From Halobacterium sp. KA-4 (lineage in GTDB: Archaea > Halobacteriota > Halobacteria > Halobacteriales > Halobacteriaceae), in contig NZ_JAJJZG010000016.1 of assembly GCF_021028995.1 (NCBI RefSeq), forward strand, positions 1 to 64,000: DNA of 64,000 nucleotides, given 5' to 3'. This document shows positions 4,911-58,469 of this stretch, one piece after another. The notes under the pieces were generated by a model. The model ran no database searches. It had not been told where the DNA came from and worked only from the letters and a program-made list of their open reading frames with translations. Within the stretch, counting starts at the first letter, position 1. Every line of letters starts with the position of its first letter. The translations under genes and the position numbers were made by a program.

Positions 4911-5309
4911 TCAAGCCCCGAGGCGTCCCGTTTCGATGACGCGACTTGCGGGAACCGGCGAAGACCGGCTTCCATCCGTTCCCACAGCGGTCGCAGTCTC
5001 CACGCGCGTCACTTCGGCCCGTCCTAGACCTACCTCCTGAAGACCGCGAGCAAGAACGTTGTACGACGCATTCGCGTCTCTGTTCGCCTCAAACCCATAC
5101 GACGGACACGGGTGTTCGCGCACCTACAGCGGTTTGTCCGTCTTAACGCCACACTCGGCGCACTCTTTGGTCGTCCCCGCAGGATTCAGGATGACGTGCG
5201 TGCCGTACAGATCGCTCTTGTGTTCTAACATCTCGATGAATTCACGCCACGCGGCGACCTGCTTGTGCCGAGCGTTCCCACGCTGTTGAACCATCCCAGC
5301 AACATTTAG
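4911..5309 (-). pseudogene. tnpB: tnpB remnant with nonsense mutation
   Basis: The frame begins at LNVAGMVQQRGNARHK (the usual preceding Glu-Asp is gone) and ends at the stop at 4911. It contains GTTKECAECGVKTDKPL, then an in-frame TAG, then VREHPCPSYGFEANRDANAS. It is clearly related to the tnpB genes at 34145 and 51717. It is dead for three reasons: missing N-terminal two thirds, premature stop, and the second zinc-ribbon Cys pair changed from CPAC to CPSY. The element's right-end hairpin (4904-4922) is preserved next to it, ending in GTTCAC on the minus strand at 4895. Confidence 0.75.
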
Positions 5310-5335
5310 TGGTTGGTATCACAGGTTGCCGGCTT

Positions 5336-5470
5336 CAACCCCGGAGTCAAGCCCTGGGGTATTCGCCTCGATAGCCTGTAAAATTATCCCACGCTCCTCC
5401 CGTGTGCTTCCGCTGGGGCTGGAAGCCCCGGCGGTCTTCGGGGCGGGGAGCTTCCGCTCGAAGCGAGGAA
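5336..5470. repeat. Decayed insertion-sequence end
   Basis: CCCCGGAGTCAAGCCCTGGGG is a degenerate form of the CTCGGGGTCAAGCCCCGAG hairpin seen at 3192, 3766, 4904, 45257 and 58491. It is followed by a similar downstream string (TATTCGCCTCGATAGCCTGTA). The GC-rich palindromic stretch to 5470 carries no gene. It is probably an old tnpB-element end. Confidence 0.4.
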
Positions 5471-5481
5471 CTGTCTTGGGG

Positions 5482-14568: not shown

Positions 14569-14761
14569 TCTGGCCCCTGGACGCCAACTCACCTAATTCG
14601 AGGCGGAGGCCCCACCCGCAAGGAGCGCCGGGGTTCCGCCTCCGGCGGAAGCACGAGCGAGTAGGGTGGGGAGGAAGCCGACTCGGTGTCAATCAGCCGT
14701 CAGACTGTTGCCTGCTGCCCCTCAATCATTAAGTGACTATGCGTGTATATGTGAAAATATC

Positions 14762-15967
14762 GTGGAGTACCGTCGTACTGCTGTTATCAAGCTCGACACG
14801 CCCCAAGGCGCGGATATGCACCTTCGAGAGACTGTCGAGCAGTTCAAATACTGCGCCAACACCGCGAGCGAATGGTGTTGGCACGGCGACGATGGCTACC
14901 ACGTTACATCGAAGGCCAAGGCCGAAGGTGCACTGTACGACCAGCTACGCGAGGACACGGAGTTAACCGCGAATCTCGTCCAGAAAGGGATTCGCCAAGC
15001 CGTCGAAGCCGTCAAAAGCGGCGTCGAACGCCTCAAGAACGACCAAGATACGTCCCGTCCGACCTTCACGGCTGATACCGCCGTCTACGACAAGCGAAGT
15101 GCCACCTTCCACCACGACCATGTTTCGCTGTCAACACCGGACGGACGTATCGAGTGCGACTACATTCTTCCCGACGACACCGACATACCGCCGACAAAGT
15201 ACGTTACAGACGAGGACTACGAGTTTCGGCGGGCAACACTCCATCGACGTGACGGCGACTGGTATCTCCATGCGTCAATGCTCAAAGACGACGACACCCA
15301 CACCACGACCGAGCACAGAACAGTCCTCGGTGTGGATCTCGGTGTGAATCAACTCGCGGTCGCTTCGACCGGGCGGTTCTGGTCGGCAGACGAGTTCAAC
15401 CACTGGAAACAAGAGTACGAAAAGCGGCGAGGCGACCTCCAACAGTGTGGAACGCGAGCGGCACACGACGCGATAGAGGGCGTCAAGCGCAAAGAAGATG
15501 GACGCTTTGAGATATTTCTGCATCGTGTCGCCAACGAAATCGTCGCCGAAGCCCTCTCTCACAACTGTTCGCACATCGTGTTTGAGGACCTGACCAACAT
15601 TCGTGAGAACGTACCAGAAGCGTCGTGGCACCATCTGTGGGCGTTCCGTCGCCTCTACGAGAACGTCGCATACAAAGCCACAGAACAGGGCGTCAAAGCC
15701 GTGCAAGTAGACCCACGCAACACCTCGAAGCGATGTTCGACCTGTGGGTTTACCCACGACAATAACCGCGACGGCGAGGAGTTTGCGTGTCAGGACTGTG
15801 GCTACCAGAACCACGCCGACTACAACGCCGCGAAGAACATCGGCCTCCAGTATCTCCGTCGTCGGCAAAACGCAGACGACGGAGGCGCACCCGTAGACGT
15901 GCGCTTGAATCGCGGGACGCTGAACGTGAGCGGAGAGTACAACCTTCCCGCCTCATCCGAGGCGTAG
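14762..15967 (+). CDS. tnpB: TnpB RNA-guided nuclease (element A)
   Basis: 401 residues from the GTG at 14762. An ATG at 14666 is in frame but adds an unrelated leader that is part of the left end. RuvC-type acidic residues are all present: Asp192 ([11 protein letters not shown]), Glu275 (IVFEDLTNI) and Asp353 (HADYNAAKN). The zinc ribbon has Cys325/328 and Cys343/346. Length and motifs match intact haloarchaeal IS1341-family TnpB, known in other organisms as an omega-RNA-guided DNA endonuclease that helps its element persist. Closest relatives within the window are 57201 and 61641. Confidence 0.85.
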   Translation: MEYRRTAVIKLDTPQGADMHLRETVEQFKYCANTASEWCWHGDDGYHVTSKAKAEGALYDQLREDTELTANLVQKGIRQAVEAVKSGVERLKNDQDTSRPTFTADTAVYDKRSATFHHDHVSLSTPDGRIECDYILPDDTDIPPTKYVTDEDYEFRRATLHRRDGDWYLHASMLKDDDTHTTTEHRTVLGVDLGVNQLAVASTGRFWSADEFNHWKQEYEKRRGDLQQCGTRAAHDAIEGVKRKEDGRFEIFLHRVANEIVAEALSHNCSHIVFEDLTNIRENVPEASWHHLWAFRRLYENVAYKATEQGVKAVQVDPRNTSKRCSTCGFTHDNNRDGEEFACQDCGYQNHADYNAAKNIGLQYLRRRQNADDGGAPVDVRLNRGTLNVSGEYNLPASSEA

Positions 15968-34144: not shown

Positions 34145-35422
34145 ATGAAGTACAGTCCACGATACCGGCTCCTTCCGACGACCGACCAACGGGAGAGCCT
34201 CGACTGGACTCGCGACATCGTGCGACAAACCTACAACCACGCCCTCCACGAATTCAACAAAATCCCTGAAGACGCTGGCACGCTCAGACAACGCGTCTGG
34301 CAAGTCCGCGACCAACTCCCCGCCCTCAAAGACTGGTGGACCAGCCTCAAACAAGTCTGGTCAACCGTCCTGCAGAAAGCCGTCGAACGAATCCGCGATA
34401 ATATCCAAAACCTCGGGAAGCTCAAAGCCAAGGGGTACAACGTGGGGTCGTTGAACTGGAAGGCACCGCGTGAGTTCAGGAGTTTCACGTACCGGCAATC
34501 GGGCTTCGAACTCGACAAGAAGAGTGGCCCGAAAGACCGAGCAATTCTCCAACTCAAGAAAGTCCATGGCGAAACCATCGACATTCCAGTTCGGTTTCAC
34601 CGGGACCTCCCCGACCACGACACTATCAAAGAGGTCACGGTCAAGAAAGAACCCACGGGCGCGTGGTACGCCAGTTTCTGCATCAAAACCGACACACCAG
34701 ACAAACCAGACCCTGAGAACATCGACCCGGATGACACTGTGGGTCTCGACCTCGGCATAGTGAACTTCATCCACGACTCAGACGGCCGCTCGGTCAACCG
34801 TCTCGACCTGTCCGACGAGCGCGAGTGCTTGGAACGCGAGCAACGCTCGCTCTCCCGGAAAGAGTACAAGTCGAACAACTGGGAGAAGCAGCGCCAGCGC
34901 GTCGCCGAAGTCCACGCGGACATGTCGAACAAGAAGCGTGATTACAAGCACAAGCTCGCTCACGCGTATACGACCGCGTACGACGCGGTGTTCGTCGAAG
35001 ACCTGAATGTGAAGAGGATGCTTGAATCCCGACAGAACGTGCGGAACAAGGCCGAGGTCGGTTGGCGTGACTTCATCACGATTCTCAAACATCATGGCCG
35101 CAAACACGGCTGTCACGTAGTGGAAGTCGAAGCGCGGGGCACCACGAAAGAGTGTGCGGAGTGCGGGGTGGAGACGGCGAAGCCGTTGTGGGTGCGAGAG
35201 CATTCGTGTCCGGCGTGTGGCTTTGAAATCGACCGGGATTGGAATGCTGCATTCAACGTCCAGCAGCGCGGTTGGAATAAACTAGGAGTGGTTCACTCCG
35301 AAGCAACGCCTGCGGAGACTGCGACCGCTGTGGATGCTCTCGAAGTATCTGCAAGTCGCGTCGTCGAAACAGGAAGCCCCTGCCTCAAGGAGTCGCCGAA
35401 GGCGACGAGTAGGCAGGGGTAG
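34145..35422 (+). CDS. tnpB: TnpB RNA-guided nuclease (element B)
   Basis: 425 residues. Helix-turn-helix-like N-terminus (YRLLPTTDQRESLDWTRDIV), then RuvC pieces with Asp202 (VGLDLGIVNFI), Glu285 (VFVEDLNVKRM) and Asp365 (IDRDWNAAFN). The zinc ribbon is Cys337/340 and Cys355/358. All catalytic and zinc residues are present, so the protein should be functional. The C-terminal ~60 residues (SEATPAETATAVDAL onward) are encoded by the right-end/guide-RNA region and are low in structure. The sequence belongs to a different tnpB subfamily from 14762/57201/61641. Nearest relative in the window is 51717. Confidence 0.88.
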   Translation: MKYSPRYRLLPTTDQRESLDWTRDIVRQTYNHALHEFNKIPEDAGTLRQRVWQVRDQLPALKDWWTSLKQVWSTVLQKAVERIRDNIQNLGKLKAKGYNVGSLNWKAPREFRSFTYRQSGFELDKKSGPKDRAILQLKKVHGETIDIPVRFHRDLPDHDTIKEVTVKKEPTGAWYASFCIKTDTPDKPDPENIDPDDTVGLDLGIVNFIHDSDGRSVNRLDLSDERECLEREQRSLSRKEYKSNNWEKQRQRVAEVHADMSNKKRDYKHKLAHAYTTAYDAVFVEDLNVKRMLESRQNVRNKAEVGWRDFITILKHHGRKHGCHVVEVEARGTTKECAECGVETAKPLWVREHSCPACGFEIDRDWNAAFNVQQRGWNKLGVVHSEATPAETATAVDALEVSASRVVETGSPCLKESPKATSRQG

Positions 35423-36252: not shown

Positions 36253-36546
36253 TTAGGGCGTTTGGACTGGTCGCGACCAGTGGTCGACATCGGTGACGGT
36301 ATCTTGACCGACGAGCTGCCAGTCCCGGTTCCGCCAGACTTCTTCAATCCGCTGCCACTCGTCGCTGTTGTTCGACTGAGGGACGAACCGGATGCGACGT
36401 CGCGTCCCAGAGTGATCAGTGAACTCAATGACTTCCTCACAGCGAGTCCCGGGCGTCATCGGCTGCGTGGGTGTCGCGGTGCTCTGTGGCGTGGGACAAC
36501 TGCTCTGGGCGGATCGATCGCCGCTCTTCGTGTTCTCATTGGACAT
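36253..36546 (-). CDS. Small protein with RRIRF domain
   Basis: 97 residues from the ATG at 36546 (54 upstream residues rejected). The N-terminal 30 residues are polar and disordered. The remainder reads VIEFTDHSGTRRRIRFVPQ, IEEVWRNRDWQLVGQDTVTD. The same compact domain ends the HNH protein at 54187-54894 (RRRIRFVERDDGPGWWQ...DPVTDVD) and survives as a fragment at 47543-47675. Strand-rich pattern with conserved RIRF, a W and a terminal VTDVD. No function is known to me. Confidence 0.6.
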   Translation of the reverse strand: MSNENTKSGDRSAQSSCPTPQSTATPTQPMTPGTRCEEVIEFTDHSGTRRRIRFVPQSNNSDEWQRIEEVWRNRDWQLVGQDTVTDVDHWSRPVQTP

Positions 36547-37518
36547 TCTTTCACCGGCACGCTCAACACGTGCCCTCCACCCAAACCCCGGGGGGTACAA
36601 ACAAATCCAACCGCAGCATCCCCAGCTTCCCCTTCGGTTGCCGTTCCTAGACCACGCCGGCGTTACCATAGCAGTCGAAACCTCTGCATCCAGAGAGTCC
36701 AGCGGCACCGGTCACACGGCTTGCTCGTGGTGGGGATGTTCTCAGTGGCGAGCTTCGGATTGACGGGACGAGGGTTGGCGTTCGTCACGTCGCGGCGAGA
36801 GTTGTTGAGTCCGGTCAGTCGCCGACGAATAAGGATTTTGGTACTGCCATCCACCGCAGCATCGGCAGCAGCACATCAGTCCACCTTGTGTTGTCAGCGG
36901 GAATTACATGCTAAATCGCCGGACGGGGTGGTAACAGCAGCACCAGTTACCGACTAAGATAGTGATTGTCGTCATAGTAGTGATTGTAGCGGGGGGCGTG
37001 AGAAAGACAGGAGGGACCCAACGAACAGGGGGAAGGAAACGAGTGGCCCGCTGAAGATGGACAGCCATCAGTGGCTGAAGCGCTCTGAAAAGCCGCGGTT
37101 TCGGATGGTTTCTGGACTGGCGGTGGCACTGTTAGCAAGGTCTGATTGTCAGGTACTCACTCGTGAATGGGCTTCAGGGTGGGGTTCTCGGTGGTGCGGT
37201 GCAGAGAGTGCGTAGGGGTTTCTCAGTCAGCCGAAGACTAGTTCAACACGGTAGATGTATCCACGCTCGTACTGATGTGGTTCGGAATGTTTCTGCGATC
37301 TTTCGGTTACGTTACTCGGTGATAGGGGAATTTGGGGGTTTTTATACTGGCACCCATCGTAGATCGGCGAGCTTGGTCGATTCTTGAGGATCTGGTGAGA
37401 GATGAGAGTGGACACTTCTTGAGATTATTATACGCTGAACAGGCGCAATACCACGGCGTTCACGCCGTGGATACGCGCCGTCACCTGGGACAGTATCCAC
37501 GTTCGCCAGCACTCTGAG

Positions 37519-39873: not shown

Positions 39874-41871
39874 TTACGGCGGCTCGTAAGGTGGATACCG
39901 CCACTGGCGAAGGTCGTCAATCATGTAGGCGATCCTGTCGCGATCAAGGTCGAACTCGAGCCCGTAGGGATCAATCGTTCGCAGCCACGTACAGAGCCGG
40001 GGAAAGACTTGGTCAATCTCTAGCGGGTCGGCGTCTGTTGCGACGGTGTACTGATCGAGAAATCGCTCGATGACTTCTCGAGTGAACGATGGCGATCGAT
40101 ACCGGGGGTCGTCGTTCGTAACCCACGCTGGCCGGTGGTGATACTCTTGAAATCCGCGGGCTGTTGGCGTTAAGATGGTTCCATAATACAGCCCGGTTGC
40201 GAGAAATGCGGGGGCAATGGGCGTTTGGAGCGGTGCCCAAGACGCTGCGAGGGCGTCTGCCGTTTGGAACTGCGTGCTGTGGTCGCCGTTGGCGCCACAG
40301 ATGACAAGCTCGTCATTAACGCGGTGACAGGTCGGAAGCGACGCGACGAGCGCCTCGGGTGTCCATGGCTGTGTCCAGTGTGCGAGCTGCTCATTACCGC
40401 CCCATAACTCGAGGGAGCCGTCAGGCGTTAGCCACCACGTAGGAGCGGCAGCCGACCGTGGGTACACCACAGCTGCGCCATTGGCTTTGAGCGGCTGTGA
40501 GGTTGTGTACAGCCGTACTTTCTTTGGTGTTGTGTCGTGAAATGGGTGGGCTAGCAGAGCGGCGACACGATCGGCAGTTTCGTCGGTGTCGGCAACGATG
40601 TACGCGGTCGTCTTTTCACGGGCAGCGGCGCTTACAAGTGCAATGAGATCACCGGCCCCGAGCGTTTCGTCGGTGACGACGAGGACTGGCTGTACGCCTT
40701 TCTCCCGGACAAGTTCGAACGTGGCAGAGGGGTACCAGCGCGGGTCTTGGAGCGTCCCCCGTGTCTGTAACCACGTTATCGCAGCCTGCGTGTGTTCGTT
40801 GTCGGCATCAACGTCGAGGGTTTCGATTGGGTCGACCGACGATGCGATTCGGTCATTCGTCGTCCCGGGGACCGTACCTGGGGCCTCACGAAGGATAGAC
40901 TCGACACTGTATGTGAACGGCTCCCAGCCAGCGCGTGGTGGCCATTGGTCGCGGTCGTAGTAGGCGGGTGCGTGAGTAAGAAACACCGGGAGCGTCTCTG
41001 CGTCGACGGGGAGCCAGGGATCGACGTCGAGCACGTCGTATTCGCGCAGTTGGGATTGGCTTGGCGTTCGTTCTCGTAAGGCATCGAACGCCGCAGGGCT
41101 GCGTGCGAGTCGCCGGCGGATATCCGGCTGGTGGTCCTCGTCGCGCTCGAGTGCACGAATTTTGTCGGTGTCGAGATACAACCGCGGGGTCTCGCGGTCG
41201 TCACCGATCACGGGCGCGTCTGCTGCGGTATTCCACGTCCCTGTAAGCGGCAACCGCCATGACGACGTGATTGCGTCATCGGTGAAATACGTCGCCGGAT
41301 CGATGGTGCCGTCATTGAGTGCGGTGGCATGGTCACTGTCGCTCACCCACTGGCGGTTGGGATCGTAGATTGCTGCCCGAACTGACACCTCTCGATCGGA
41401 GCCAGCGTTCCGGACGAGAATCCGAATGACGTGTGCCAGTCCGTTGTTGATGAGTGTACTGAGATACTGCCGAAGCGCCGTTCGTGGATGGGAGCGATCT
41501 GAATTCCGGGAGGGCTGAGAGTAGGTGATGTCTGCGTCCGGTGTGTTCGGGCCGAGCAGACACGCCGTTAGTGCGGGTGTCGCTCCTAATTTTGTTGCTT
41601 CTACGATCTCAAACCCAATCTGTCGGGGTAACTCTTCTTGGGCGGCCCGGATAAGTGGATAGTTCGCCTTGAGTGTTCGGTCCCCTGCCGCCAGCAGCAA
41701 CTCTTGTGACTGTGCGCCGGTATGAATGGTCGCCTCAACGAGATCATCCGGCTGGCGGGTCGCGGTGTACACTGCTCGGGCGAGATCATCACTCAGTGAT
41801 GTCTTCCGTCGCTCATCGGGAGTGTCGACGCCCGGCCAGCGAAGTCGAAGGAATGTTTGCTGTAGTGACAT
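39874..41871 (-). CDS. Unknown protein, D5-like winged-helix C-terminus (operon partner 2)
   Basis: 665 residues from the ATG at 41871 (a TTG two codons upstream is less likely). No Walker, RuvC, HUH or primase motifs are seen. A central segment, DPWLPVDAETLPVFLTHAP, AYYDRDQW, resembles FWIPPATIGYFTKRYAHYY, EIDPW in the upstream gene product, so the two are distant relatives. Next comes an alpha/beta segment (VLVVTDETLGAGDLIALVSA, ETADRVAALLAHPF) ending in WWLTPDGSLELW. The last 100 residues read TREVIERFLDQYTVATDADP, LEIDQVFPRLCTWLRT, similar to the D5-type winged helix of P4-like primases. Transcribed 21 bp behind 41893-44157. Function unknown. Confidence 0.7.
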   Translation of the reverse strand: MSLQQTFLRLRWPGVDTPDERRKTSLSDDLARAVYTATRQPDDLVEATIHTGAQSQELLLAAGDRTLKANYPLIRAAQEELPRQIGFEIVEATKLGATPALTACLLGPNTPDADITYSQPSRNSDRSHPRTALRQYLSTLINNGLAHVIRILVRNAGSDREVSVRAAIYDPNRQWVSDSDHATALNDGTIDPATYFTDDAITSSWRLPLTGTWNTAADAPVIGDDRETPRLYLDTDKIRALERDEDHQPDIRRRLARSPAAFDALRERTPSQSQLREYDVLDVDPWLPVDAETLPVFLTHAPAYYDRDQWPPRAGWEPFTYSVESILREAPGTVPGTTNDRIASSVDPIETLDVDADNEHTQAAITWLQTRGTLQDPRWYPSATFELVREKGVQPVLVVTDETLGAGDLIALVSAAAREKTTAYIVADTDETADRVAALLAHPFHDTTPKKVRLYTTSQPLKANGAAVVYPRSAAAPTWWLTPDGSLELWGGNEQLAHWTQPWTPEALVASLPTCHRVNDELVICGANGDHSTQFQTADALAASWAPLQTPIAPAFLATGLYYGTILTPTARGFQEYHHRPAWVTNDDPRYRSPSFTREVIERFLDQYTVATDADPLEIDQVFPRLCTWLRTIDPYGLEFDLDRDRIAYMIDDLRQWRYPPYEPP

Positions 41872-41892
41872 ACTCAAAGCTGGTGGAAGTGG

Positions 41893-44157
41893 CTATAGTG
41901 TGAGGTCAGCGTCAGCGTCGATACCAGCGAGATGTGGCGAGACGAGCCCGCGGGGAAACACCCAGGTGTAGCCAACAAGTGCTTTCTTCCCCCCGGACAT
42001 GTCTTTTCGGTCGATCTCATCGGGCAGGCCTTTACTGAACCAGCCCGTGTTCGGGGCGTCTTTACTGGTACACCACCGGTAGAGACCCATCATCGCCGTG
42101 TGACACTTATTAACGGGGAGTTCTGCGTCGGGAGTCTCGGTGAGGAACGCTTCTGTGATGTCCATCCCGAACTCCTCGTACCGGTCCATTTTGCCCCCGG
42201 CGCGCTCCCACTTCGGTGTGGCGTCGTACTCGACGAACTCACCGGTGTCTTTGCTTTTTGCGCCCGTCTCGTGCATGATTGTCACGTACTGGAGATAGCT
42301 AATATCAATCGGGACGTGTGGCGTTGTGACGCGAGTCCATTCCCGTGTGAACGCGATTTCGTTCTCGTAAGTGAGCGTCTCACCGTCACGGGTAGTAACG
42401 ACGTATTTACCGTCTTCTTTCTGTGCAGTCGCACAGCCATGGGTGACCTCGGTGAGATCCGCCTCAGCCGGACAGCGAGTGACGACCTCGCCGTCAATGA
42501 CGTGGACGAGCATGCCATCAGGCGTGAGATACCAGGTTGACTCGGATTTGGCGGTGACGAGCATTTCACCCTCAACTTCGGGAATCGCGTCTCCCTGAAA
42601 CGTTCGTACTCCGTACTCTGTCCGTTCACTGTACGTCGCATAGAGGAGTTCGTAGGCGCGGTCAGCAGCCGATTCGCTTTTGAATACGAGAATGACGTGG
42701 CGGTCCGCAGCTATCGCGCGTTCGACGTTCGTGAGAATGTTCGCTGGCTTGGACTCGTTTTTCCACTCCGGTTCGACGTTGACCACGTCGCTATCGACCT
42801 GTTTTTCGAGGATATTGATGTATCCATTATCCGGATCGAGTTCTTGGTCCGGCAGCGACGCTCCGTCCTGTTCGACACGGTTGATCTCGTCGCCCCGAGC
42901 ACGCGCAAATGTCATGAAATCGTCGCCGAGTGTGAGGTGACTGTCACTTCCATCAGTGGGATGTCTGCGTTCGGCGTCGATGGTTGACTCTGGTGTCTCC
43001 CAGTCGGTCCGGACGTCGATGTCGTGTATCTGGCGTGGCGTAAATGTCGGCGCATCTCGAACCGGAGAGTGTCTCCACGGATCGATCTCGTAGTAGTGTG
43101 CGTACCGTTTCGTGAAGTAGCCGATCGTCGCCGGGGGAATCCAGAACCGGCCGTAGTAGCCGTGGTCTTTTGCCGTTGGCTCCCAGCCAGTTGACCCGTT
43201 AAGCAGTCGTGGAAAATCATTATGGCCGAGAATGATCTCTTTCAACTTCTCGACTTTCAGTCGGTGTTGGAGTTTCGTATCATACCGTTTTCGCATTGCG
43301 TCCCTGATGGAGACGGTGTGGACCGTTTGCCCGTTGATCTGCCGGTCATAGTCGATGTGGAGGTAGTCTTCGATGTTGATGTCGAAATTCGACGTAAGAC
43401 CGGTGGATGTAAACGCCCGCCCGAAATCTCCGGGCGCGCCTTCTTTGACGAGTCGGGCGAGTCCGCGATCACCTTGGTGTGTGTGGTCGCCTGACAGCGT
43501 TGCCAGCCGGGAGGTCATATGGAGCTTTCCGTCACCGGGCTCAGTGATGAGCTGGTGAACGAACGGCTCACGCGCGTGTGTGAGTGCGTCGAAGACTGTT
43601 TCCATCGCATCCGGGTCGACTTTGCCAACGCCGGAAACCTCCTCAGTGTCTTCGTTGACTAACCGGCACGTGGAGGTGGCTCCCCCAGCCGAGATTGGGT
43701 CCAGATTGAAGTCACCAACCTCGATATTGTACACATCGGGGAAGGCCGTATTTACTGTCTCGTACGCTACGTTGAGGATGCTTTCTATAACCTGCTCGTT
43801 GAAGTCGGTAATCTCAGGCTGGATTGCGCGGCCATCGACGAAGTGCGGGTTGATATGGAACGCGTGACATGTGACCGCCGCAACGTCAATATCCGGACAT
43901 GGAATCGGCCGCGGATACGTTAGCGCCTCGACTGGCGCCTCAAACTTCTTTTTGAGCTTCGTTATTGATTCCGCGACTGCATCGCCCGTTTTTTCTGTGA
44001 GTTTATTTTTGTAATCCGGGTCCACTGGCGGTGTTGCGTGGACGGCACCGCGTCTAACGTATCCATCATCGTTTGTGGCGATCCACAAATTGGGGCGCTG
44101 TTCGTGTCGTTTAAATTGCTGTTCGACGGTGTCCAGCGAGAACGTTTGCTGGCTCAT
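41893..44157 (-). CDS. Unknown protein, D5-like winged-helix C-terminus (operon partner 1)
   Basis: 754 residues from the ATG at 44157 (a GTG five codons upstream is possible). The N-terminal half (~1-330) has an alpha/beta look (VFDALTHAREPFVHQLITEP; FGRAFTSTGLTSNFDINIED) that I cannot place. At ~330-380 come GYYGRFWIPPATIGYFTKRY and HYYEIDPW. An alpha/beta segment ends in STWYLTPDGMLVHV, matching WWLTPDGSLELW downstream. The C-terminus (~650-730) reads DITEAFLTETPDAELPVNKC, GLYRWCTSKDAPNTGWFSKG, the spacing of a D5-like winged helix. No nucleotide-binding motif. Divergent from the membrane winged-helix gene at 44399 across a 241-bp promoter region. Confidence 0.7.
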   Translation of the reverse strand: MSQQTFSLDTVEQQFKRHEQRPNLWIATNDDGYVRRGAVHATPPVDPDYKNKLTEKTGDAVAESITKLKKKFEAPVEALTYPRPIPCPDIDVAAVTCHAFHINPHFVDGRAIQPEITDFNEQVIESILNVAYETVNTAFPDVYNIEVGDFNLDPISAGGATSTCRLVNEDTEEVSGVGKVDPDAMETVFDALTHAREPFVHQLITEPGDGKLHMTSRLATLSGDHTHQGDRGLARLVKEGAPGDFGRAFTSTGLTSNFDINIEDYLHIDYDRQINGQTVHTVSIRDAMRKRYDTKLQHRLKVEKLKEIILGHNDFPRLLNGSTGWEPTAKDHGYYGRFWIPPATIGYFTKRYAHYYEIDPWRHSPVRDAPTFTPRQIHDIDVRTDWETPESTIDAERRHPTDGSDSHLTLGDDFMTFARARGDEINRVEQDGASLPDQELDPDNGYINILEKQVDSDVVNVEPEWKNESKPANILTNVERAIAADRHVILVFKSESAADRAYELLYATYSERTEYGVRTFQGDAIPEVEGEMLVTAKSESTWYLTPDGMLVHVIDGEVVTRCPAEADLTEVTHGCATAQKEDGKYVVTTRDGETLTYENEIAFTREWTRVTTPHVPIDISYLQYVTIMHETGAKSKDTGEFVEYDATPKWERAGGKMDRYEEFGMDITEAFLTETPDAELPVNKCHTAMMGLYRWCTSKDAPNTGWFSKGLPDEIDRKDMSGGKKALVGYTWVFPRGLVSPHLAGIDADADLTL

Positions 44158-44297
44158 ACAGACCCCCTCCACTGCGGCAGGTGGGACGGTAGTCGTGCCG
44201 TGGTGTATCTACGACAGGTCTCGTGTTCGCTCATCCTGTACCGATGACTGACGAGGGGGGTATAGAATGAGATTTCTCGAATTCGAGACTCGAATCT

Positions 44298-44372
44298 CCA
44301 AAAGAAATATATATGAGGAAGGAGGACCCCTCTCCAAACTATCAATACTAGCATTTTATGAAGAACAGATTA
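44298..44372. promoter_or_regulatory. AT-rich promoter region for 44399
   Basis: AAAAGAAATATATATG (44299-44314) and GATTATAAC (44364-44372) are archaeal TATA-like. The second is ~30 bp before the ATG at 44399, consistent with a leaderless transcript. The divergent gene starting at 44157 must have its own promoter in the same gap. Confidence 0.4.
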
Positions 44373-44398
44373 TAACATTCGATGCAATCGAACTCACC

Positions 44399-45154
44399 AT
44401 GAGTGCCGCCACGGAGACGAATCGAGACCAAGAGAACGGTCCTTCGACTGTCAAGGCGATTCAAGATGCGATCAATACTGATGATCGCATCGGCTCCGAT
44501 CAGCAACCGATCTCCACAATGAAACCGCGTGCACGAGAAATCATTAAAATCATCGGCACTCGGGGAGACCACCGCAGTCGGGGGACGGTAGATCAGGAGT
44601 CCACGGGAATTAGTGCCCCGGAGTTAGCTGAACGTGAGGAGTTCGGCGTTGGGGTCGACACGCTGCGTAATGACCTGCGTACACTCGTCAAGTGTAGCTA
44701 TCTCAATGCCGATGAGTCTGAACGACCCTACCGGTATACGATCGCTGACTCTTGGATTACTCCAGCCACGACTGACGCAGTTACCGATGGATCTAGTACC
44801 TCTTCGCAGGGCTCGGCTATCGACGAGAGGATATCGACCCACGAAACTGAGTACGCAGAGCCGAGTAAACCAATCAAAAACTATCAGCGGGTATCTATGC
44901 TGGTATCGGCGGCTCAAGCGAATCTCACACCCATCAAGCACACCGTAGCCTCGATTTTTGGAATCGGTGGATGCGTGGTAGGGCTGTTTGGGGTACTTCT
45001 CTGGGTCAGTGGCCTGTATCTCAGCCCGCATCTTGTTGCTGCTGGCGACTCCAGCATCCAAGCAGGTCTGGCACTTCTCTTCGGGTGGTTTTGGATACAT
45101 TTCGTTGGACTGGTGAATGCTATGTCGGACGATGAGGAAGCCACGCTATCCTGA
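44399..45154 (+). CDS. Winged-helix protein with C-terminal two-helix membrane anchor (pair 1)
   Basis: 251 residues from the ATG at 44399. A longer frame from 44267 would read through the promoter. Residues ~40-125 look like a helix-turn-helix (AREIIKIIGTR...ISAPELAEREEFGVGVDTLR, NDLRTLVKCSYLNADES). A polar linker precedes two hydrophobic helices (~195-215 and ~222-245: GIGGCVVGLFGVLLWVSGLY and AGLALLFGWFWIHFVGLV). A DNA-binding domain tethered to the membrane is the direct reading. It stands head-to-head with 41893-44157. The same design recurs at 46916-47542 beside 45731-46705. Confidence 0.7.
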   Translation: MSAATETNRDQENGPSTVKAIQDAINTDDRIGSDQQPISTMKPRAREIIKIIGTRGDHRSRGTVDQESTGISAPELAEREEFGVGVDTLRNDLRTLVKCSYLNADESERPYRYTIADSWITPATTDAVTDGSSTSSQGSAIDERISTHETEYAEPSKPIKNYQRVSMLVSAAQANLTPIKHTVASIFGIGGCVVGLFGVLLWVSGLYLSPHLVAAGDSSIQAGLALLFGWFWIHFVGLVNAMSDDEEATLS

Positions 45155-45745
45155 TTCACCGAAGAACTCCCGCTAATCACGGCGAGCGATAACACCCCAC
45201 AGAATGGGAGTGACAGCGCCGCGGCCCCACCAAACAGAGCTACCCACGGTGAACGCCTCGGGGTCAAGCCCCGAGGCACTCGGCCTGCTCCGCCTGTAGA
45301 TGGCGCTCAGAGGGGCTGGGTTGCAACCCACTATTCTGGGAGGGGTTGGTGGTTTGCAGTCTCTGTGCTATCCGACCGACAATTCTAAGTCATTATCACA
45401 GTAATCATTATGTAGAGTATGACATCCTCCGCGCCGTGAACGGCGGAATTCTCTCCTCGAAGAAAGATGGAACGAGACAGGCCGGCAAAATCGTGTCCTG
45501 CTTCGTCACGCGTTCCTCGTCTTCGTACTCGCGTCTATACGGCGCTCGTTGCGGAAGGCGGCTCCGTGCTACCATCAGACGCTGACTACCGCGGCGATGT
45601 CGTCTGGGGATCCCATCTGTTCAGTTAATCGAGCAGATTTTGTACTCGATTTTTTAATCCTCCTCCACGTGAATGCGGAGGGAGATGTCAAGTGTCGGTA
45701 GAACGAGAGTCCACCGACAAGCCCACCCCTTTACAGGCGGGTAGC
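45155..45745. repeat. Cluster of solo insertion-element ends
   Basis: There are three parts. The first is GTGAACG plus hairpin CTCGGGGTCAAGCCCCGAG (45257-45275), followed by the CACTCGGCCTG...CGCCTGTAGAT string also seen at 3785. The second is CATCCTCCGCGCCGTGAACG, GCGGAATTCTCTCCTCG (45422-45462), an end like those near 8340 and 38340. The third is GGTAGAACGAGAGTCCACCG (45694) with ACAAGCCCACCCCTTTACAG, a right end like 39405. No intact gene lies between. Confidence 0.5.
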
Positions 45746-46705
45746 TGACGTGCGGCGGTTCACGACGGGGTTCCACCGCCAGACGCGATTACACAGCACT
45801 CCCGAGTCTCCAGCCTCACCATCAGCGATGCGCTTGATGTTGCCGTGGTTCTCAAGCTGTCGGCCGAACGTTGATTGACTGTCGGGCTTGCCTGCGAAGC
45901 CAGCTTGCCATGCCTGATATCGTGCGAACACATCCGCGATCGGCAGATGTTCACCTTCAGACTGGATTGTTGTCTGCTTTAGGAACGTCGCGAGTGCCTC
46001 CGTGCTCTGGTTCTTGTGTGGTTGCTTTCGGTACGTCGCCAGATCCTTGCCGTTGTCCGATTTTGGATAGTGGATGGTGACATCACTCCCAAAGGTGATC
46101 CTATCCGGCTGGAGCCAATCCCAGACCGTCACGTACTCGTCGTCGAGCGCGGCCGTCGTGGCAGTCCGTTCGAGTTCTTCACCAGCGTCGTCTTCGATAA
46201 CCCAGCCATTCTCATCACCGTCTTCTTGGCGGGCGGTAAACACGCCAGCCGGCAGATCCGTGAACTGCGCTTGCTCACTACGGTTACTGAACGGCACTAG
46301 GACGGTGTCATCTTCCCACGCGAGCTCAGTTCCCTCGCCGGCGACGAACTCGACCTTGGGCTGGGACTTGCTCGACTCTTGGACGACGCAACCATCACTC
46401 GGCGTCTGCAGTGGCTTCACGGAGCGGTATGGCACCGCACCCCGTGGCGTCTGTTCTTTGACCGGACATGAGACGATGTCATCGATCATCGCCGCACTTT
46501 GCTTTGACGGCGCGAACACGCGTGCGTGCCCTGTGTTCTGGCACACTGTCATCAGTTTCCTGCCGAGCGTCGCCGGCCGGTACTGATTCCCAGTCACCAC
46601 CACATGCGACTCCGGGCCCGTCACGAACTCACCCCCATTTTCGTCGTGGGACGCGTCAGTTGTACTCGATACCACATCGCGATGCCGATTTATGCGACCG
46701 GACAT
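45731..46705 (-). CDS. Unknown protein with D5-like winged-helix C-terminus (pair 2)
   Basis: 324 residues from the ATG at 46705. An alpha/beta segment at ~30-130 (VVVTGNQYRPATLGRKLMTV, ARVFAPSKQSAAMIDDIV) is followed by an acidic beta region. The C-terminal ~90 residues read STEALATFLKQTTIQSEGEH, LPIADVFARYQAWQAGFAGK, STFGRQLENHGNIKRI. This spacing (long helix, acidic loop, LPxxxVFxxYQxW, FGRxLxxxGxxKR) is that of the D5/P4-primase winged helix. The same tail ends the two larger proteins 39874 and 41893. There is no primase or helicase core. The stop codon lies inside the TTTACAGG of an insertion-element end, so the last residues may be foreign. Confidence 0.7.
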   Translation of the reverse strand: MSGRINRHRDVVSSTTDASHDENGGEFVTGPESHVVVTGNQYRPATLGRKLMTVCQNTGHARVFAPSKQSAAMIDDIVSCPVKEQTPRGAVPYRSVKPLQTPSDGCVVQESSKSQPKVEFVAGEGTELAWEDDTVLVPFSNRSEQAQFTDLPAGVFTARQEDGDENGWVIEDDAGEELERTATTAALDDEYVTVWDWLQPDRITFGSDVTIHYPKSDNGKDLATYRKQPHKNQSTEALATFLKQTTIQSEGEHLPIADVFARYQAWQAGFAGKPDSQSTFGRQLENHGNIKRIADGEAGDSGVLCNRVWRWNPVVNRRTSATRL

Positions 46706-46915
46706 TGCGAGTGGGGCTTCCGGGGGGAGGGAGGTAGCCCTCGTGGAGATTTGGCAGCCCCAAACCACCAACACATTCATAATGTGAGCGAGCGCCGGAC
46801 ATCGAGGTATATTCGGGTGATTTCGAGGGCATTGGGGCGGCTAGTCTGAATACTCGAGATGCAAAGTATAATCCAGCATAAGTACTAAGTGAAGAACGGT
46901 CAATAGTCAGGTAGG

Positions 46916-47542
46916 ATGAACCCGAAGGACGAGATGTTCAAGTCCCTCCCCTCAAATATACAAGAGACGCTTCGGGCTATCGATGACTTTGAGAAGCAAA
47001 TGGCCCTTGCAGAAGTCATCTACCATATCCTTCCTGGACCTGATAGACAACTGGATAAGGTATGTACCGCCACCGAAGTGCATGAGGTTGTACCTGGGAC
47101 AAAACAGACTGCGAGAAACCACCTGAATGACTTAGTCGACCTAAACATCCTTGAGGATACCAACCCAGAACAGAAAACATTCCACGTCCACCCCCACATT
47201 CAGACTGATCGAAACGTCTCCAATCGTTCTAATACCCTCGTCCACGATGGCGGAAGCATCCACGAACAGCTACCTGACTTCGACAACCCACTGTTTAACC
47301 CCGCAGACGGCAATCCAATCAAACCCACTATCGCAACCATCTTCCTCCTCATCTTCTCTGCGCCTACCGCGACCATCACGACCAGCCTCGGCGCAGTAGA
47401 CCCCTCAAGCGCACTCATCGCCGGTCTCCTCCTCACCAGCACCTGGCTCACCTACGAACTCGCGAAAATCCCCACCGAGTACCCACGACACACCGCCCAC
47501 GAGCTTCACTCCCGACTCCAACGACTCAACCTCACCCCCTAG
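46916..47542 (+). CDS. Winged-helix protein with C-terminal two-helix membrane anchor (pair 2)
   Basis: 208 residues. Residues ~15-100 form a winged-helix-like unit (FEKQMALAEVIYHILPG, TATEVHEVVPGTKQTARNHL, NDLVDLNILED). After a polar stretch two membrane helices occupy ~140-157 and ~165-182 (IATIFLLIFSAPTATITTSL; LIAGLLLTSTWLTYELA). Design and orientation mirror 44399-45154: it is divergent from a D5-tail protein across a 210-bp gap that holds TATA-like AAGTATAATC (~46864). Sequence similarity to its counterpart is weak, so convergence of architecture rather than recent duplication is possible. Confidence 0.7.
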   Translation: MNPKDEMFKSLPSNIQETLRAIDDFEKQMALAEVIYHILPGPDRQLDKVCTATEVHEVVPGTKQTARNHLNDLVDLNILEDTNPEQKTFHVHPHIQTDRNVSNRSNTLVHDGGSIHEQLPDFDNPLFNPADGNPIKPTIATIFLLIFSAPTATITTSLGAVDPSSALIAGLLLTSTWLTYELAKIPTEYPRHTAHELHSRLQRLNLTP

Positions 47543-51716: not shown

Positions 51717-52958
51717 ATGTATTACGCCTACAAGTACCGTCTCAAGCCGTCCGACTCCCACCATGAGGAGTTGGACCGCCACCGAGACATTTGTAGGCAA
51801 CTCTACAACCACACGCTCTACCGTCTCAACGAGTACCAAGACGAACACGGCGAACTGCCGTCCATGACCACCCTGCGGTCGGAACTCCCCGACCTCAAGC
51901 AGTGGTGGGACGACCTCGACGACGTGTACTCGAAGGTTCTCCAAACCGTCGTCGAACGGCTGTTCGACAACCTCAAAGGCCTCTCCAAGCTCAAGGAGAA
52001 CGGCTACAGCGTTGGCCAACTCAAATGGAAGCCGCCACGAGAGTTCCGCAGTTTCACGTACAGTCAGTCTGGCTTCAAGCTCGACAAGAAGGGCGGTCAG
52101 ACTGTCCTGTCGCTCTCGAAACTTGCGGACATACCGATTCGGCTCCACCGCGCCATCCCCGACGACGCCAAACTCAAACAGGTCACGATCAAGAAGGAAC
52201 CGACGGGCGAGTGGTTCGCCACCTTCGGGGTCAAAATGGACCGTGAACCACCCGAACCGCCTGAGAACCCCGAGAAGTGCGTCGGTATCGACGTTGGGAT
52301 TCTCACGTACGCACACGACACCGACGGCGCGGCGGTCGGGTCGCTTGACCTCTCAGACGAACGTGACCGCTTGGAACGCGAGCAACGGAAACTCTCGCGC
52401 AAACAGCACGGGTCGAACAACTACGAGAAGCAACGGCGGCGCGTCGCGGAGTGTCACGCCGACCTCCGACGGAAGCGCCGCGACTTCCTGCACAAGCTCT
52501 CGGCGTACTATGCTCGGGAGTACGACTTCGTGGCGGTCGAAGACTTGAACGTGAAGGGGATGCTCGAATCACCGTCGAACAGTCGCAACACGGCGTCTGC
52601 CGCGTGGCGAACGTTCCTCTCGCTGCTCGAATACAAGTGCGACCGCGAAGGCACGCACTTCGTAGCGGTGGACCCGAGAGGGACGACCAAAGAGTGCGCG
52701 GCGTGCGGCGTCTCGACGGAGAAGCCGCTCTGGGTCCGTGAACACTCCTGTCCTGCCTGCGGGTTTGAGGCTGACAGGGACGCGAACGCGGCGTGGAACA
52801 TCCTTTCTCGCGGTCTCGAAGTTGTAGGAGTGGGACACTCCAAATCAACGCCTGTGGAGACTGCGCTCCCTGTGGATACGCCTGTATCTGCAAAGCGCGT
52901 CGTGGAAGCAGGAAGCCCTACCCTCAAGGAGCGAACGGCGTCAGCCGTGAGCGAGTAG
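51717..52958 (+). CDS. tnpB: TnpB RNA-guided nuclease (element C)
   Basis: 413 residues. Catalytic Asp192 (VGIDVGILTYAH), Glu275 (VAVEDLNVKGM) and Asp355 (EADRDANAAWN); zinc-ribbon Cys327/330 and Cys345/348. Same subfamily as 34145 and the dead copy at 4911, with which it shares GTTKECAxCGVxTxKPLWVRE. All functional residues are present. Coupled to the RHH gene upstream by a 3-bp gap. Confidence 0.88.
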   Translation: MYYAYKYRLKPSDSHHEELDRHRDICRQLYNHTLYRLNEYQDEHGELPSMTTLRSELPDLKQWWDDLDDVYSKVLQTVVERLFDNLKGLSKLKENGYSVGQLKWKPPREFRSFTYSQSGFKLDKKGGQTVLSLSKLADIPIRLHRAIPDDAKLKQVTIKKEPTGEWFATFGVKMDREPPEPPENPEKCVGIDVGILTYAHDTDGAAVGSLDLSDERDRLEREQRKLSRKQHGSNNYEKQRRRVAECHADLRRKRRDFLHKLSAYYAREYDFVAVEDLNVKGMLESPSNSRNTASAAWRTFLSLLEYKCDREGTHFVAVDPRGTTKECAACGVSTEKPLWVREHSCPACGFEADRDANAAWNILSRGLEVVGVGHSKSTPVETALPVDTPVSAKRVVEAGSPTLKERTASAVSE

Positions 52959-57200: not shown

Positions 57201-58469
57201 ATGGACGACGCGCCACGACGCACCGTGCCCATCAAACTCGATGTGCCCGAAGAGCGTCGTGGCGACCTCCATCAAACCAAAACCCAATTCCTGCACTGCG
57301 CCAACCGAACGAGTGAGTGGGCATGGCGCTACGATGACTACTGTGTCACCAGCAAGAGCAAAGCCGAAAACGCCCTATACGACGAGTTGCGCGAAGAAAC
57401 CGACCTCACCGCCAACCTCGTCCAGAAAGGCATCCGACGCGCCATCGAAGCCGTCGATGCAGGCGTTGAGAAACTCAAGGACGGCGAGAAGACGAGTCAA
57501 CCCGATTTCGACTCGTGGAGCGTCGTCTACGACAAACGCTCCGCGTCGTTCAACGATGACCACGCCACGCTCTCCACGCCGAACGGCAGAGTCACCGCGG
57601 AATACGTCCTTCCACCAAAAGAAGAGCGAGAGGAAACACCGTTCGGAAGGTACTACGAGAGCGACGACTGGAATGCCTCCAGCGCCACGCTCCAGTACGA
57701 CGAGCAGGATGACACGTTCTCCCTGCACATCACGCTGAAGAACCCCGACTACACGGTTGACGCAAGCGGACGCCAAAAAGCTGGTCACGATGATGATGGT
57801 GCCGAGAACGGAGTGGTTCTCGGTGTTGACCTGAACGTGACTGGCGCGTTCGCCGTCACCTCAACGGGCGAGTTCATCGGCAGTGCAGACTACCTCACCC
57901 ACAAGCGCAACCAATACGAACAACGCCGCGCCAAACTGCAACAGGCTGGCACTCGTTCCGCGCACCTCACGATGCAGTCCATCGGCAGCCGCTTCTCGGA
58001 TTGGTCGCTGGACTGGTTGCACAACAGAGCGAACGACCTCATCGCGGAAGCCCAAGACGCGGATGTAGACGGCATTATTTTCGAGAACCTTGACCATATC
58101 CGCGAGAACATCGCTAATGGGTCGAAGTTCCAGCAGTGGGCGTATGCGAAGTTCGTGGAACTCGTGGAGTACAAGGTCGAATCCACCGAGTTGTTCGTGG
58201 ACACGGTGAATCCTGCGTACACGAGTCAGCGGTGTTCGCACTGTGGGTTTACCCACGAGGATAATCGTGACGACAAGGCGTTCGAGTGCCAATCATGTGG
58301 GTATGAGGTGAACGCGGATTACAACGCGGCGAAGAACATCGCCGTCCGATACTGCGGGTATATCCATCGCGGGCAGACGTCTCGCGGTGGATGGGCCACC
58401 AGTCAACTGGCCCTCAAGTCAGGGACGTTGAACGTGAACGGCGAGTACACGCCTGCCCAATTGGGTTAG
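57201..58469 (+). CDS. tnpB: TnpB RNA-guided nuclease (element D)
   Basis: 422 residues. Asp210 (LGVDLNVTGAF), Glu295 (IIFENLDHI) and Asp373 (NADYNAAKN); Cys345/348 and Cys363/366. Same subfamily as 14762 (shared TANLVQKGIRxAxEAV and YNAAKNI). Where other copies read VDLGVN, this one has VDLNVT, but the catalytic Asp is kept. Full length and probably active. Confidence 0.87.
   Translation: MDDAPRRTVPIKLDVPEERRGDLHQTKTQFLHCANRTSEWAWRYDDYCVTSKSKAENALYDELREETDLTANLVQKGIRRAIEAVDAGVEKLKDGEKTSQPDFDSWSVVYDKRSASFNDDHATLSTPNGRVTAEYVLPPKEEREETPFGRYYESDDWNASSATLQYDEQDDTFSLHITLKNPDYTVDASGRQKAGHDDDGAENGVVLGVDLNVTGAFAVTSTGEFIGSADYLTHKRNQYEQRRAKLQQAGTRSAHLTMQSIGSRFSDWSLDWLHNRANDLIAEAQDADVDGIIFENLDHIRENIANGSKFQQWAYAKFVELVEYKVESTELFVDTVNPAYTSQRCSHCGFTHEDNRDDKAFECQSCGYEVNADYNAAKNIAVRYCGYIHRGQTSRGGWATSQLALKSGTLNVNGEYTPAQLG

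Follow-up and report, generated by a model that had tools for sequence, protein, structure and literature searches.

A haloarchaeal gene pair related to the C-terminal module of conjugative coupling proteins

Background

What are the products of three neighbouring genes of Halobacterium sp. KA-4, and what might they do? The genes lie on the minus strand of the 64,000 nucleotides analysed here (NCBI RefSeq assembly GCF_021028995.1, contig NZ_JAJJZG010000016.1, positions 1 to 64,000 of the forward strand). This whole stretch, referred to below as the window, is contained in contig C7 of genome G000 of our survey, in which G, C and L numbers denote genomes, contigs and loci. The three proteins are:

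39874-41877, minus strand: P0001, small subunit (667 amino acids; likely start M3 at 41871)
41893-44172, minus strand: P0002, large subunit (759 amino acids; likely start M6 at 44157)
45731-46780, minus strand: P0003, stand-alone relative of the C-terminal half (349 amino acids; start uncertain)

P0001 and P0002 belong to no Pfam, NCBIfam or PADLOC family, and a single weak PHROG match was obtained for P0002 (E 0.029). In a first-pass annotation the three proteins had been described as possible ancient paralogs with a common fold of unknown type. The paralogy is borne out below. The fold is not of unknown type, because the same C-terminal module ends the coupling proteins of haloarchaeal conjugation. 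The family is conserved in haloarchaea, goes under no name in the libraries searched and is a new variant of known conjugation parts.

Results

Homology of the three proteins

The three open reading frames are present as annotated, and the WLP/WIP...YY...DxW and alpha/beta stretches said to be shared by P0001 and P0002 occur in both: DPWLPVDAE...AYYDRDQW (residues 286-312) and TWWLTPDGSLELW (480-492) in P0001, FWIPPAT...HYYEIDPW (343-366) and TWYLTPDGMLVHV (546-558) in P0002. The two proteins align by BLASTP at E 9e-9 over residues 427-609 and 495-679, respectively, with a Smith-Waterman score of 131 against a maximum of 73 after shuffling (0/300 shuffles). The BLASTP alignment spans the alpha/beta-TPDG part, and the WLP/WIP part is covered by profile alignment only. 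When the profiles of the large family (20 rows) and the small family (14 rows) were compared, they aligned over 652 columns (Prob 100, E 1.4e-61).

The pairwise scores of P0003 are borderline, both with P0001 (BLASTP E 0.034, residues 425-479 with 86-141 of P0003; 1/300 shuffles as high) and with P0002 (E 0.09; 6/300 shuffles as high). P0003 matches the profile of the large family over residues 91-340 (Prob 98, E 1.7e-13) and that of the small family with Prob 93 and E 2.6e-7. In pairwise profile alignment the homology of P0001 and P0002 thus extends along almost the entire length of both, and that of P0003 along residues 91-340, as expected of ancient paralogs with a common fold; the match to the large family also takes in much of the comparable alpha/beta segment that had been seen in P0003, which indeed lacks TPDG.

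The C-terminal module of haloarchaeal coupling proteins

From the comparisons given below, the C-terminal module shared by these proteins is seen to consist of a nuclease-like core, a beta domain with the TPDG hairpin and a D5-type tail, and to end the VirD4/TraG-type coupling proteins of haloarchaea. The parts of the three proteins are as follows (pLDDT: predicted local distance difference test):

43087-44076, minus strand: P0002 N-terminal domain, residues ~33-362, predicted to be VirB4 N-terminal-domain-like (VIA-align, Foldseek)
43075-43143, minus strand: P0002 WIP...YY...DPW stretch, residues 344-366 (sequence and alignment)
42673-42975, minus strand: P0002 PD-(D/E)xK-like core, residues 400-500 (H412, G427, P441-D442, E467xE469, N482xxR485)
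42313-42630, minus strand: P0002 beta domain, residues ~515-620 (predicted strands, block pLDDT mostly 62-84)
42514-42525, minus strand: P0002 TPDG hairpin, inside the beta domain
41938-42159, minus strand: P0002 predicted D5-type winged-helix tail, residues ~672-745 (tail alignment of the family; relatives match Pox_D5)
40942-41022, minus strand: P0001 DPWLP...YY...DQW stretch, residues 286-312 (sequence and alignment)
40543-40794, minus strand: P0001 putative degenerate core without PD or ExE, residues ~362-445 (motif in 0/21 small subunits)
40417-40428, minus strand: P0001 TPDG (sequence)
39895-40086, minus strand: P0001 predicted D5-type tail, residues ~598-661 (helices, block pLDDT 59-78 over model residues 591-630)
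46016-46609, minus strand: P0003 alpha/beta plus beta segment without TPDG or PD...ExE, residues ~58-255 (start at 58 by eye; profile matches from residues 85-91)
45836-46000, minus strand: P0003 predicted D5-type tail, residues 261-315 (Pox_D5 below cut-off)

A tblastn search of plasmids with P0002 returned 15 records, all haloarchaeal and all below 60% identity, with E-values of 5e-5 to 3e-3 and matches within residues 371-738; the plasmid searches with P0001 and P0003 were without any match. Of the 15 matches, eleven overlap genes annotated as TraM-recognition or type IV secretion proteins, one overlaps a gene labelled hypothetical and three lie in unannotated sequence; in the records that were opened the match lies in the C-terminal part of proteins of ~1010 amino acids. 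All 15 records are typed as non-mobilizable, and of seven opened, six are labelled MPF_T and none lists a relaxase, although the typing may not recognise archaeal types. P0001 matches three frames of ~1475 amino acids at E 3e-4, one of which (G024, L097) is a coupling protein.

Profile comparison gave the same picture. The large family matches the mid-length coupling proteins (8) at E 1.1e-22 over 304 columns, the long ones (5) at 4.5e-23 and three short ones at 1e-12, the last over the core only. The values for the small family are 4.2e-7, 3.9e-9 and 0.2 for the mid-length, long and short proteins, respectively, and P0003 alone reaches only Prob 26 with the mid-length ones. The ATPase half of the relatives was recognised by Pfam TraG-D_C above the cut-off in P0004 (1.8e-5) and L109 (7.2e-8) and below it in L098 (0.011); the coupling protein P0004 also matches the PADLOC model mad8 (2.7e-16) through its ATPase part. 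A Walker-A-like motif is found in 18 of the 19 coupling-protein relatives, the exception being a 633-amino-acid piece. The coupling proteins (VirD4/TraG/TraD; e.g. WP_226043166.1 of Natrinema sp. DC36) thus have the same nuclease-like core, beta domain and D5-type tail, and differ in carrying a TraG/TrwB-type ATPase. The P-loop ATPase that is the criterion for VirD4/TraG and VirB4 proteins was not found in P0001-P0003, which contain neither GK[ST] nor a Pfam ATPase, and no VirB4 was found beside the relatives of P0001-P0003.

The genome of the window itself encodes, on contig C3, a VirB4 and a 1536-amino-acid coupling-protein frame with the same core and tail. In a tree of the shared region, which is unrooted, the 19 coupling proteins form one clade (100/100) with the large and small proteins outside. 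Row L080_7828, labelled a coupling protein by its length, is a large subunit and was left out of the 19; P0003 and the tail-only rows are long branches, and their placements were not used. No title among the literature matches listed concerns a nuclease domain in haloarchaeal coupling proteins, and the portion of PMC11078007 available to us contains nothing on one.

A gene for a protein of ~420 amino acids, PrimPol-like by eye, follows the coupling protein in the plasmid loci (L003 10471-11733 and relatives) and has homologues in 10 searched loci and beside the coupling protein of the window genome.

The nuclease-like core

In the 20 large proteins of alignment A1 the residues R170, R222, H412, G427, P441, D442, E467, E469, N482, R485, W655 and P746 are invariant. 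PD...ExE is found in 23 of 25 large reading frames or pieces, the other two being C-terminal pieces that do not reach the motif, and in none of the 21 small subunits nor in P0003. Judged by these residues, the core of P0002 appears nuclease-like and that of P0001 degenerate. In alignment A7 (21 rows: 12 large and nine coupling proteins) H, G, PD, ExE, N and R are kept throughout; since its rows were chosen by a pattern containing these residues, this invariance is by construction. Evidence free of such picking comes from A1 and from reading each of the 19 coupling-protein sequences, of which all 19 have ExE (18 by pattern, L107 in A7) and 18 have PD (partly by reading). The coupling proteins outside the pattern keep H, ExE and N and mostly have N..K instead of N..R; L110 has AD for PD, and L098 has Cys for Gly.

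PD and the acidic (D/E)x position of the PD-(D/E)xK nucleases are present in P0002 (P441, D442, E467), and both PD and the first Glu align when the core profile matches the nuclease 4qbn of the Protein Data Bank (E 0.063; a designed protein ranks higher, 0.041). We take 4qbn to be of the VRR-NUC type. One of the 21 core rows matches the AHJR-like restriction endonuclease family at E 0.0025 and one Mrr_cat at 0.16, both below threshold. The core of P0002 differs from these nucleases in having ExE for ExK and an extra N..R after the core, and its matches stay below accepted thresholds. Because Glu replaces the Lys, we call the core PD-(D/E)xK-like and not a member.

The invariant residues of P0002 (H412, G427, P441, D442, E467, E469, N482, R485) all lie upstream of TPDG, around which the first-pass annotation had suggested looking for conserved surface residues; no catalytic surface was found there. 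The TPDG letters are confined to the clade of the window and to some small subunits. Among 20 members of the large family only the preceding Trp (W547) reaches 90% conservation, and in the small family (13 members) neither this Trp nor the Pro varies (W479 and P483 in alignment A2; 481 and 485 in the numbering of P0001). An active site at TPDG was ruled out, as the letters vary in both families; judged from the alignments, the site is a Trp plus a beta turn.

The D5-type tail

A D5-type winged helix is predicted at the C-terminal end. The D5 tail that had been assigned to all three proteins holds through their relatives, 11 of 54 family tails matching Pox_D5 (PF03288) at some level (best E 1.5e-8) and that of L098 scoring 29 bits, above the cut-off of 21.4. 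It does not hold by Pfam for the proteins themselves: P0001 and P0002 have no Pfam Pox_D5 match, and that of P0003 is weak (E 0.032 for the whole protein; 0.0042 for the tail alone, 17.9 bits against a gathering threshold of 21.4). At their ends, long coupling-protein frames match the P0003 tail (best E 4.5e-6, the others weaker). Pfam scans revealed no D5-type helicase domain alongside the tail, which sets the family apart from poxvirus D5.

For P0003, matches to the unrelated DNAJC11_beta-barrel (E 0.0044, better than Pox_D5 in the same scan) and to four weak PHROGs were judged to be due to chance. With the tail alone, DNAJC11_beta-barrel reaches E 0.00088, again better than Pox_D5.

The N-terminal half

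For the N-terminal half of P0002, structure comparison predicts a likeness to the N-terminal domain of VirB4. The AlphaFold model of P0002 has a mean pLDDT of 58.6 and a predicted template modelling score of 0.45, with the N-terminal domain mostly at 60-80 and most of the core below 50. VIA-align places R388 entries with TrwK/VirB4 in its top four positions (Z 10.0-10.5, 230-236 residues, 4.5-4.9 Å), the best being 7o43_A (Z 10.5, 236 residues, 4.6 Å), followed by ESX-3 chains (Z 9.0-8.5) and by flavin adenine dinucleotide oxidases at 7 and less. The likeness to VirB4/TrwK is one of predicted fold, over residues ~33-362; there is no profile link to haloarchaeal VirB4, and a nuclease-like core stands where the ATPase would be. 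The large and small N-terminal domains match by profile at E 5.6e-35. Because the P0001 model (mean pLDDT 48) gives no fold match with Z of 5 or higher, the VirB4-like half is a prediction for P0002 that is carried to P0001 by homology.

Pairing, coevolution and distribution

The genes of P0002 and P0001 are separated by 15 bases on the same strand. In a six-frame search of 24 loci, which were chosen for their large-subunit matches and some of which are near-copies of one another, an adjacent same-strand relative without the motif was found for 23 of 23 large genes; the 24th locus (L108) holds a fragment. The survey left out a G072 gene split over contigs, G248:C60 (265 amino acids) and G008:C4 at 201 kb (247 amino acids). 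Large genes that had appeared single in the first gene calling were overturned by this search, which found a partner beside each. The order is large-small in 12 loci, small-large in nine and a tail-only protein followed by the large gene in two; in one close group (L089, L090, L092, L093) the final base of the large frame can double as the first base of the small gene. Distances between large and small proteins correlate with r 0.964 over 20 pairs and r 0.881 over 10 non-redundant loci (0/5000 permutations in both), a coevolution that may reflect joint inheritance alone.

Orthologues in Halobacterium and Halorubrum are 69-76% identical to P0002 and 62-73% to P0001. Relative to L084, the differences at codon positions 1/2/3 are 0.16/0.11/0.35 for P0002 and 0.19/0.12/0.34 for P0001.

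The distribution was surveyed in 292 Halobacteria-class genomes, where only part of the first-look candidates was scored, so that genome counts are lower bounds. P0002 matches at E 0.01 occur in at least 33 of the 292. Going by score and the length of the frame, we count at least 18 of these as large subunits or fragments of them, and the others as coupling proteins or weak matches. P0001 was found in at least 23 genomes and P0003 in 28; 18 of the 32 P0003 matches lie in frames of 1147-1536 amino acids, and the two that were checked (G000, G019) are coupling proteins. Orc1/Cdc6 homologues, some in broken frames, lie within 10 kb of eight of 21 cassettes; a uniform model predicts 1.2 (P 1e-5). 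The query for this count came from the neighbourhood of a cassette, and genes of this kind may occur in accessory regions in any case. Because viral contigs (A3, P0003) and phage records (P0002) gave no relatives, a viral origin was discarded.

Several variants of the pair were also observed. A third small protein (160-227 amino acids) directly precedes small-large pairs on the same strand (L073 12439-13107, L074 6951-7667, L077 ~4931-5614); the three are mutually related, and a profile match to the family tail was obtained for those of L073 and L074. One in-frame stop interrupts the large gene of Halorubrum sp. Hd13 (G278; L066 8713-11067, L087), whose small gene is open. Further stand-alone C-terminal frames resembling P0003, G248:C60:10326-10964 (265 amino acids) and G008:C4:201069-201716 (247 amino acids), match residues 539-754 of P0002.

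Neighbouring genes and sites

Two further features adjoin the pair in the window:

44267-45154, plus strand: divergent protein upstream of P0002, between P0003 and P0002 (winged helix-turn-helix-like by eye; two transmembrane segments by simple hydropathy)
36845-37130, minus strand: conserved non-coding block of ~280 bases downstream of P0001 (78-81% DNA identity)

The divergent protein has no Pfam match, and a related gene stands in the same place in L064, L065 and L066 (E 6e-38 to 2e-125 among the four). Other divergent upstream types were found elsewhere: another in L072, L075 and L077, a different family in L067, L070, L079 and L088, and a ribbon-helix-helix plus PIN-like pair in L068, L069 and L071. 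No single partner is universal, since the upstream neighbours are of several unrelated divergent types and other loci have none. A helix-turn-helix-like protein at 46916-47542, plus strand (HTH_20 E 0.0015, below the cut-off), is divergent from P0003 in the way that 44267-45154 is from P0002, and given this neighbour P0003 may be the remnant of a second cassette.

The non-coding block matches at E below 1e-40 in only four of the 292 genomes, those with close P0002/P0001 orthologues, and in the other 288 only two short matches near 1e-3 were found; in G248 it lies on a different contig from the pair. No reading frame is open in all four genomes and the block has no Rfam match, nor does any Rfam match over 35.4-48 kb reach the gathering threshold. 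It is possibly a cis site or an RNA. The frame at 36253-36711, minus strand, within the seemingly gene-poor 36-39.9 kb, has 47% identity over 114 residues (E 2e-30) to Halobacterium salinarum DSM 3754 and is probably a small gene. The window further contains four TnpB/IS605-like reading frames on the plus strand (14666-15967, 34145-35422, 51717-52958, 57201-58469), the first confirmed by Pfam and the other three forming one sequence cluster tied to it by eye. At 16-32 kb, on the minus strand, MoxR-type AAA, DUF58, transglutaminase, DUF7269 and DUF7519 genes adjoin large PKD/Ig-repeat proteins.

Discussion

Proposed function and its alternatives

The architecture of the pair and its kinship to coupling proteins can be stated with high confidence. 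As to function, we tentatively propose, at somewhat below even chance, that P0002 and P0001 together form a two-subunit complex that contains no ATPase and is assembled from those parts of the haloarchaeal conjugation (type IV secretion) ATPases that lie outside the motor. DNA binding by such a complex seems fairly probable, and DNA cleavage in a relaxase-like or mobilisation role, suggested by the core residues, is a doubtful though serious possibility. The winged-helix tails would attach to a site in the DNA of the resident replicon. P0002 would supply a single active site, with P0001 as its catalytically dead partner, and the nicking or cutting of one strand would start the processing or mobilisation of the replicon. 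A transfer channel provided from elsewhere may dock on the VirB4-like part, and the divergent, apparently membrane-anchored helix-turn-helix gene may control the complex.

Several observations weigh against this proposal, among them the construction of A7, the origin of the Orc1/Cdc6 query and the possible joint inheritance given above. For the N-terminal half, VIA-align only realigns candidates from Foldseek, which alone ranks a chain of the R388 VirB4 complex first at E 0.015 and has none at 0.001 or below. The N-terminal domain of P0002 matches no profile of haloarchaeal VirB4 or of P7 (the product of the 395-amino-acid gene before the coupling protein), and with the N-terminal domain of the long coupling proteins it gives only Prob 15.6 and E 0.0017. 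In the core, Glu takes the place of the canonical (D/E)xK Lys in 20/20 rows of A1 and 21/21 rows of A7, and unrelated families are also among the matches of the core profile, at 0.028 and weaker. Over residues 376-474 the P0002 model has a pLDDT below 50 and does not define the core, so that a nuclease fold (alpha-beta-beta-beta-alpha-beta) is suggested there by the motif and by sub-threshold profile matches. Finally, no VirB4, PrimPol-like, P7 or VirB6-like gene (the names PrimPol-like and VirB6-like being assigned by eye) was found among the called genes of the cassette loci, where the caller misses some genes, and VirB4 (E 1e-30) is present in at least seven of the 18 genomes with a large subunit or fragment, compared with at least 185 of the 292 overall. 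A resident transfer machine is therefore not required.

The replacement of the catalytic Lys by Glu in all aligned members would fit a non-catalytic DNA-binding complex that regulates the transcription, partition or replication of an Orc1-type replicon, with PD...ExE used for DNA or metal binding only. The D5-type tails and the Orc1/Cdc6 genes near eight of 21 cassettes agree with such a role. Nevertheless, large subunits and coupling proteins alike retain PD, ExE and the flanking H and N, whereas the small subunits lack the motif, as would be expected of an active subunit paired with an inactive one, and we consider a purely non-catalytic complex rather unlikely.

A role in immunity or exclusion is also unlikely in our view. 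The pair would mimic parts of the conjugation ATPases and cut or block incoming plasmid or conjugative DNA, with the helix-turn-helix gene as sensor or regulator. Its sporadic presence (large subunits or fragments in at least 18 of 292 genomes), the island-like surroundings with ribbon-helix-helix/PIN-like pairs (by eye), an Mrr-type gene near one cassette (L065) and the low count of VirB4 in the genomes that carry it are all consistent with defence. PADLOC, however, found no match in P0001, P0002, P0003 or two relatives. The VirB4 deficit is not shown to be specific, since VirB4 is missing as well from congeneric genomes (g9) that do not carry the pair, e.g. G011, G013 and G038.

That the pair consists of decayed coupling-protein leftovers without the ATPase is very improbable, and is largely refuted for P0001 and P0002. 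GK[ST] is indeed absent from P0001-P0003, P0003 is truncated, the G278 relative is interrupted by a stop codon and L108 is a fragment; yet the differences across genera are in excess at third codon positions, both genes are kept at 23 loci, and the 19 coupling proteins form their own clade and are not scattered among the pairs. A chance or composition-driven likeness of three unrelated folds, to which only the borderline shuffling results of P0003 (1 and 6 of 300) would point, is hardly credible and is refuted for P0001 and P0002 (E 9e-9, profile E 1e-61) and, by its profile match of E 1.7e-13, for P0003.

The missing archaeal relaxase

The proposed ATPase-free complex bears on a gap in archaeal conjugation. 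According to section 23 of a review (PMC12857230), no relaxase has been identified on the archaeal plasmids discussed there. In the portion of PMC9905601 available to us, the authors state that they are aware of no apparent homologues of bacterial relaxases in archaeal genomes or conjugative plasmids, and propose NurA-HerA instead. PMC9259645 describes integrated elements of haloarchaea that carry VirB4 and TraG/VirD4-type genes. A precedent for a relaxase with such a fold is provided by the MOB-C relaxases (TraX of pAD1, MobC of CloDF13), which are of the PD-(D/E)xK type according to the part of PMC12857230 consulted. No sequence link to the MOB-C relaxases turned up, where no search was aimed at one, and P0001 and P0002 match no relaxase family in Pfam or NCBIfam, no dedicated relaxase profile having been used.

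By its core residues, P0002 is a candidate for the DNA-cutting enzyme that is missing from archaeal DNA transfer. One may go further and suppose that the nuclease-like domain of haloarchaeal coupling proteins replaces the missing archaeal relaxase, and that P0002/P0001 is a free, ATPase-less mobilisation nickase by which Orc1-type replicons ride the machine of another element; as a whole this is speculative and unlikely to be right in full. Because no relaxase is known in archaeal conjugation, the core in the coupling proteins deserves testing. The conserved acidic residues of the nuclease-like core, which is fused to the coupling protein and recurs in a two-subunit family lacking an ATPase, are defined targets for mutation. 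If the core cuts, the enzyme that opens the DNA in archaeal transfer would be identified; if it does not, the family would still represent a new use of conjugation parts.

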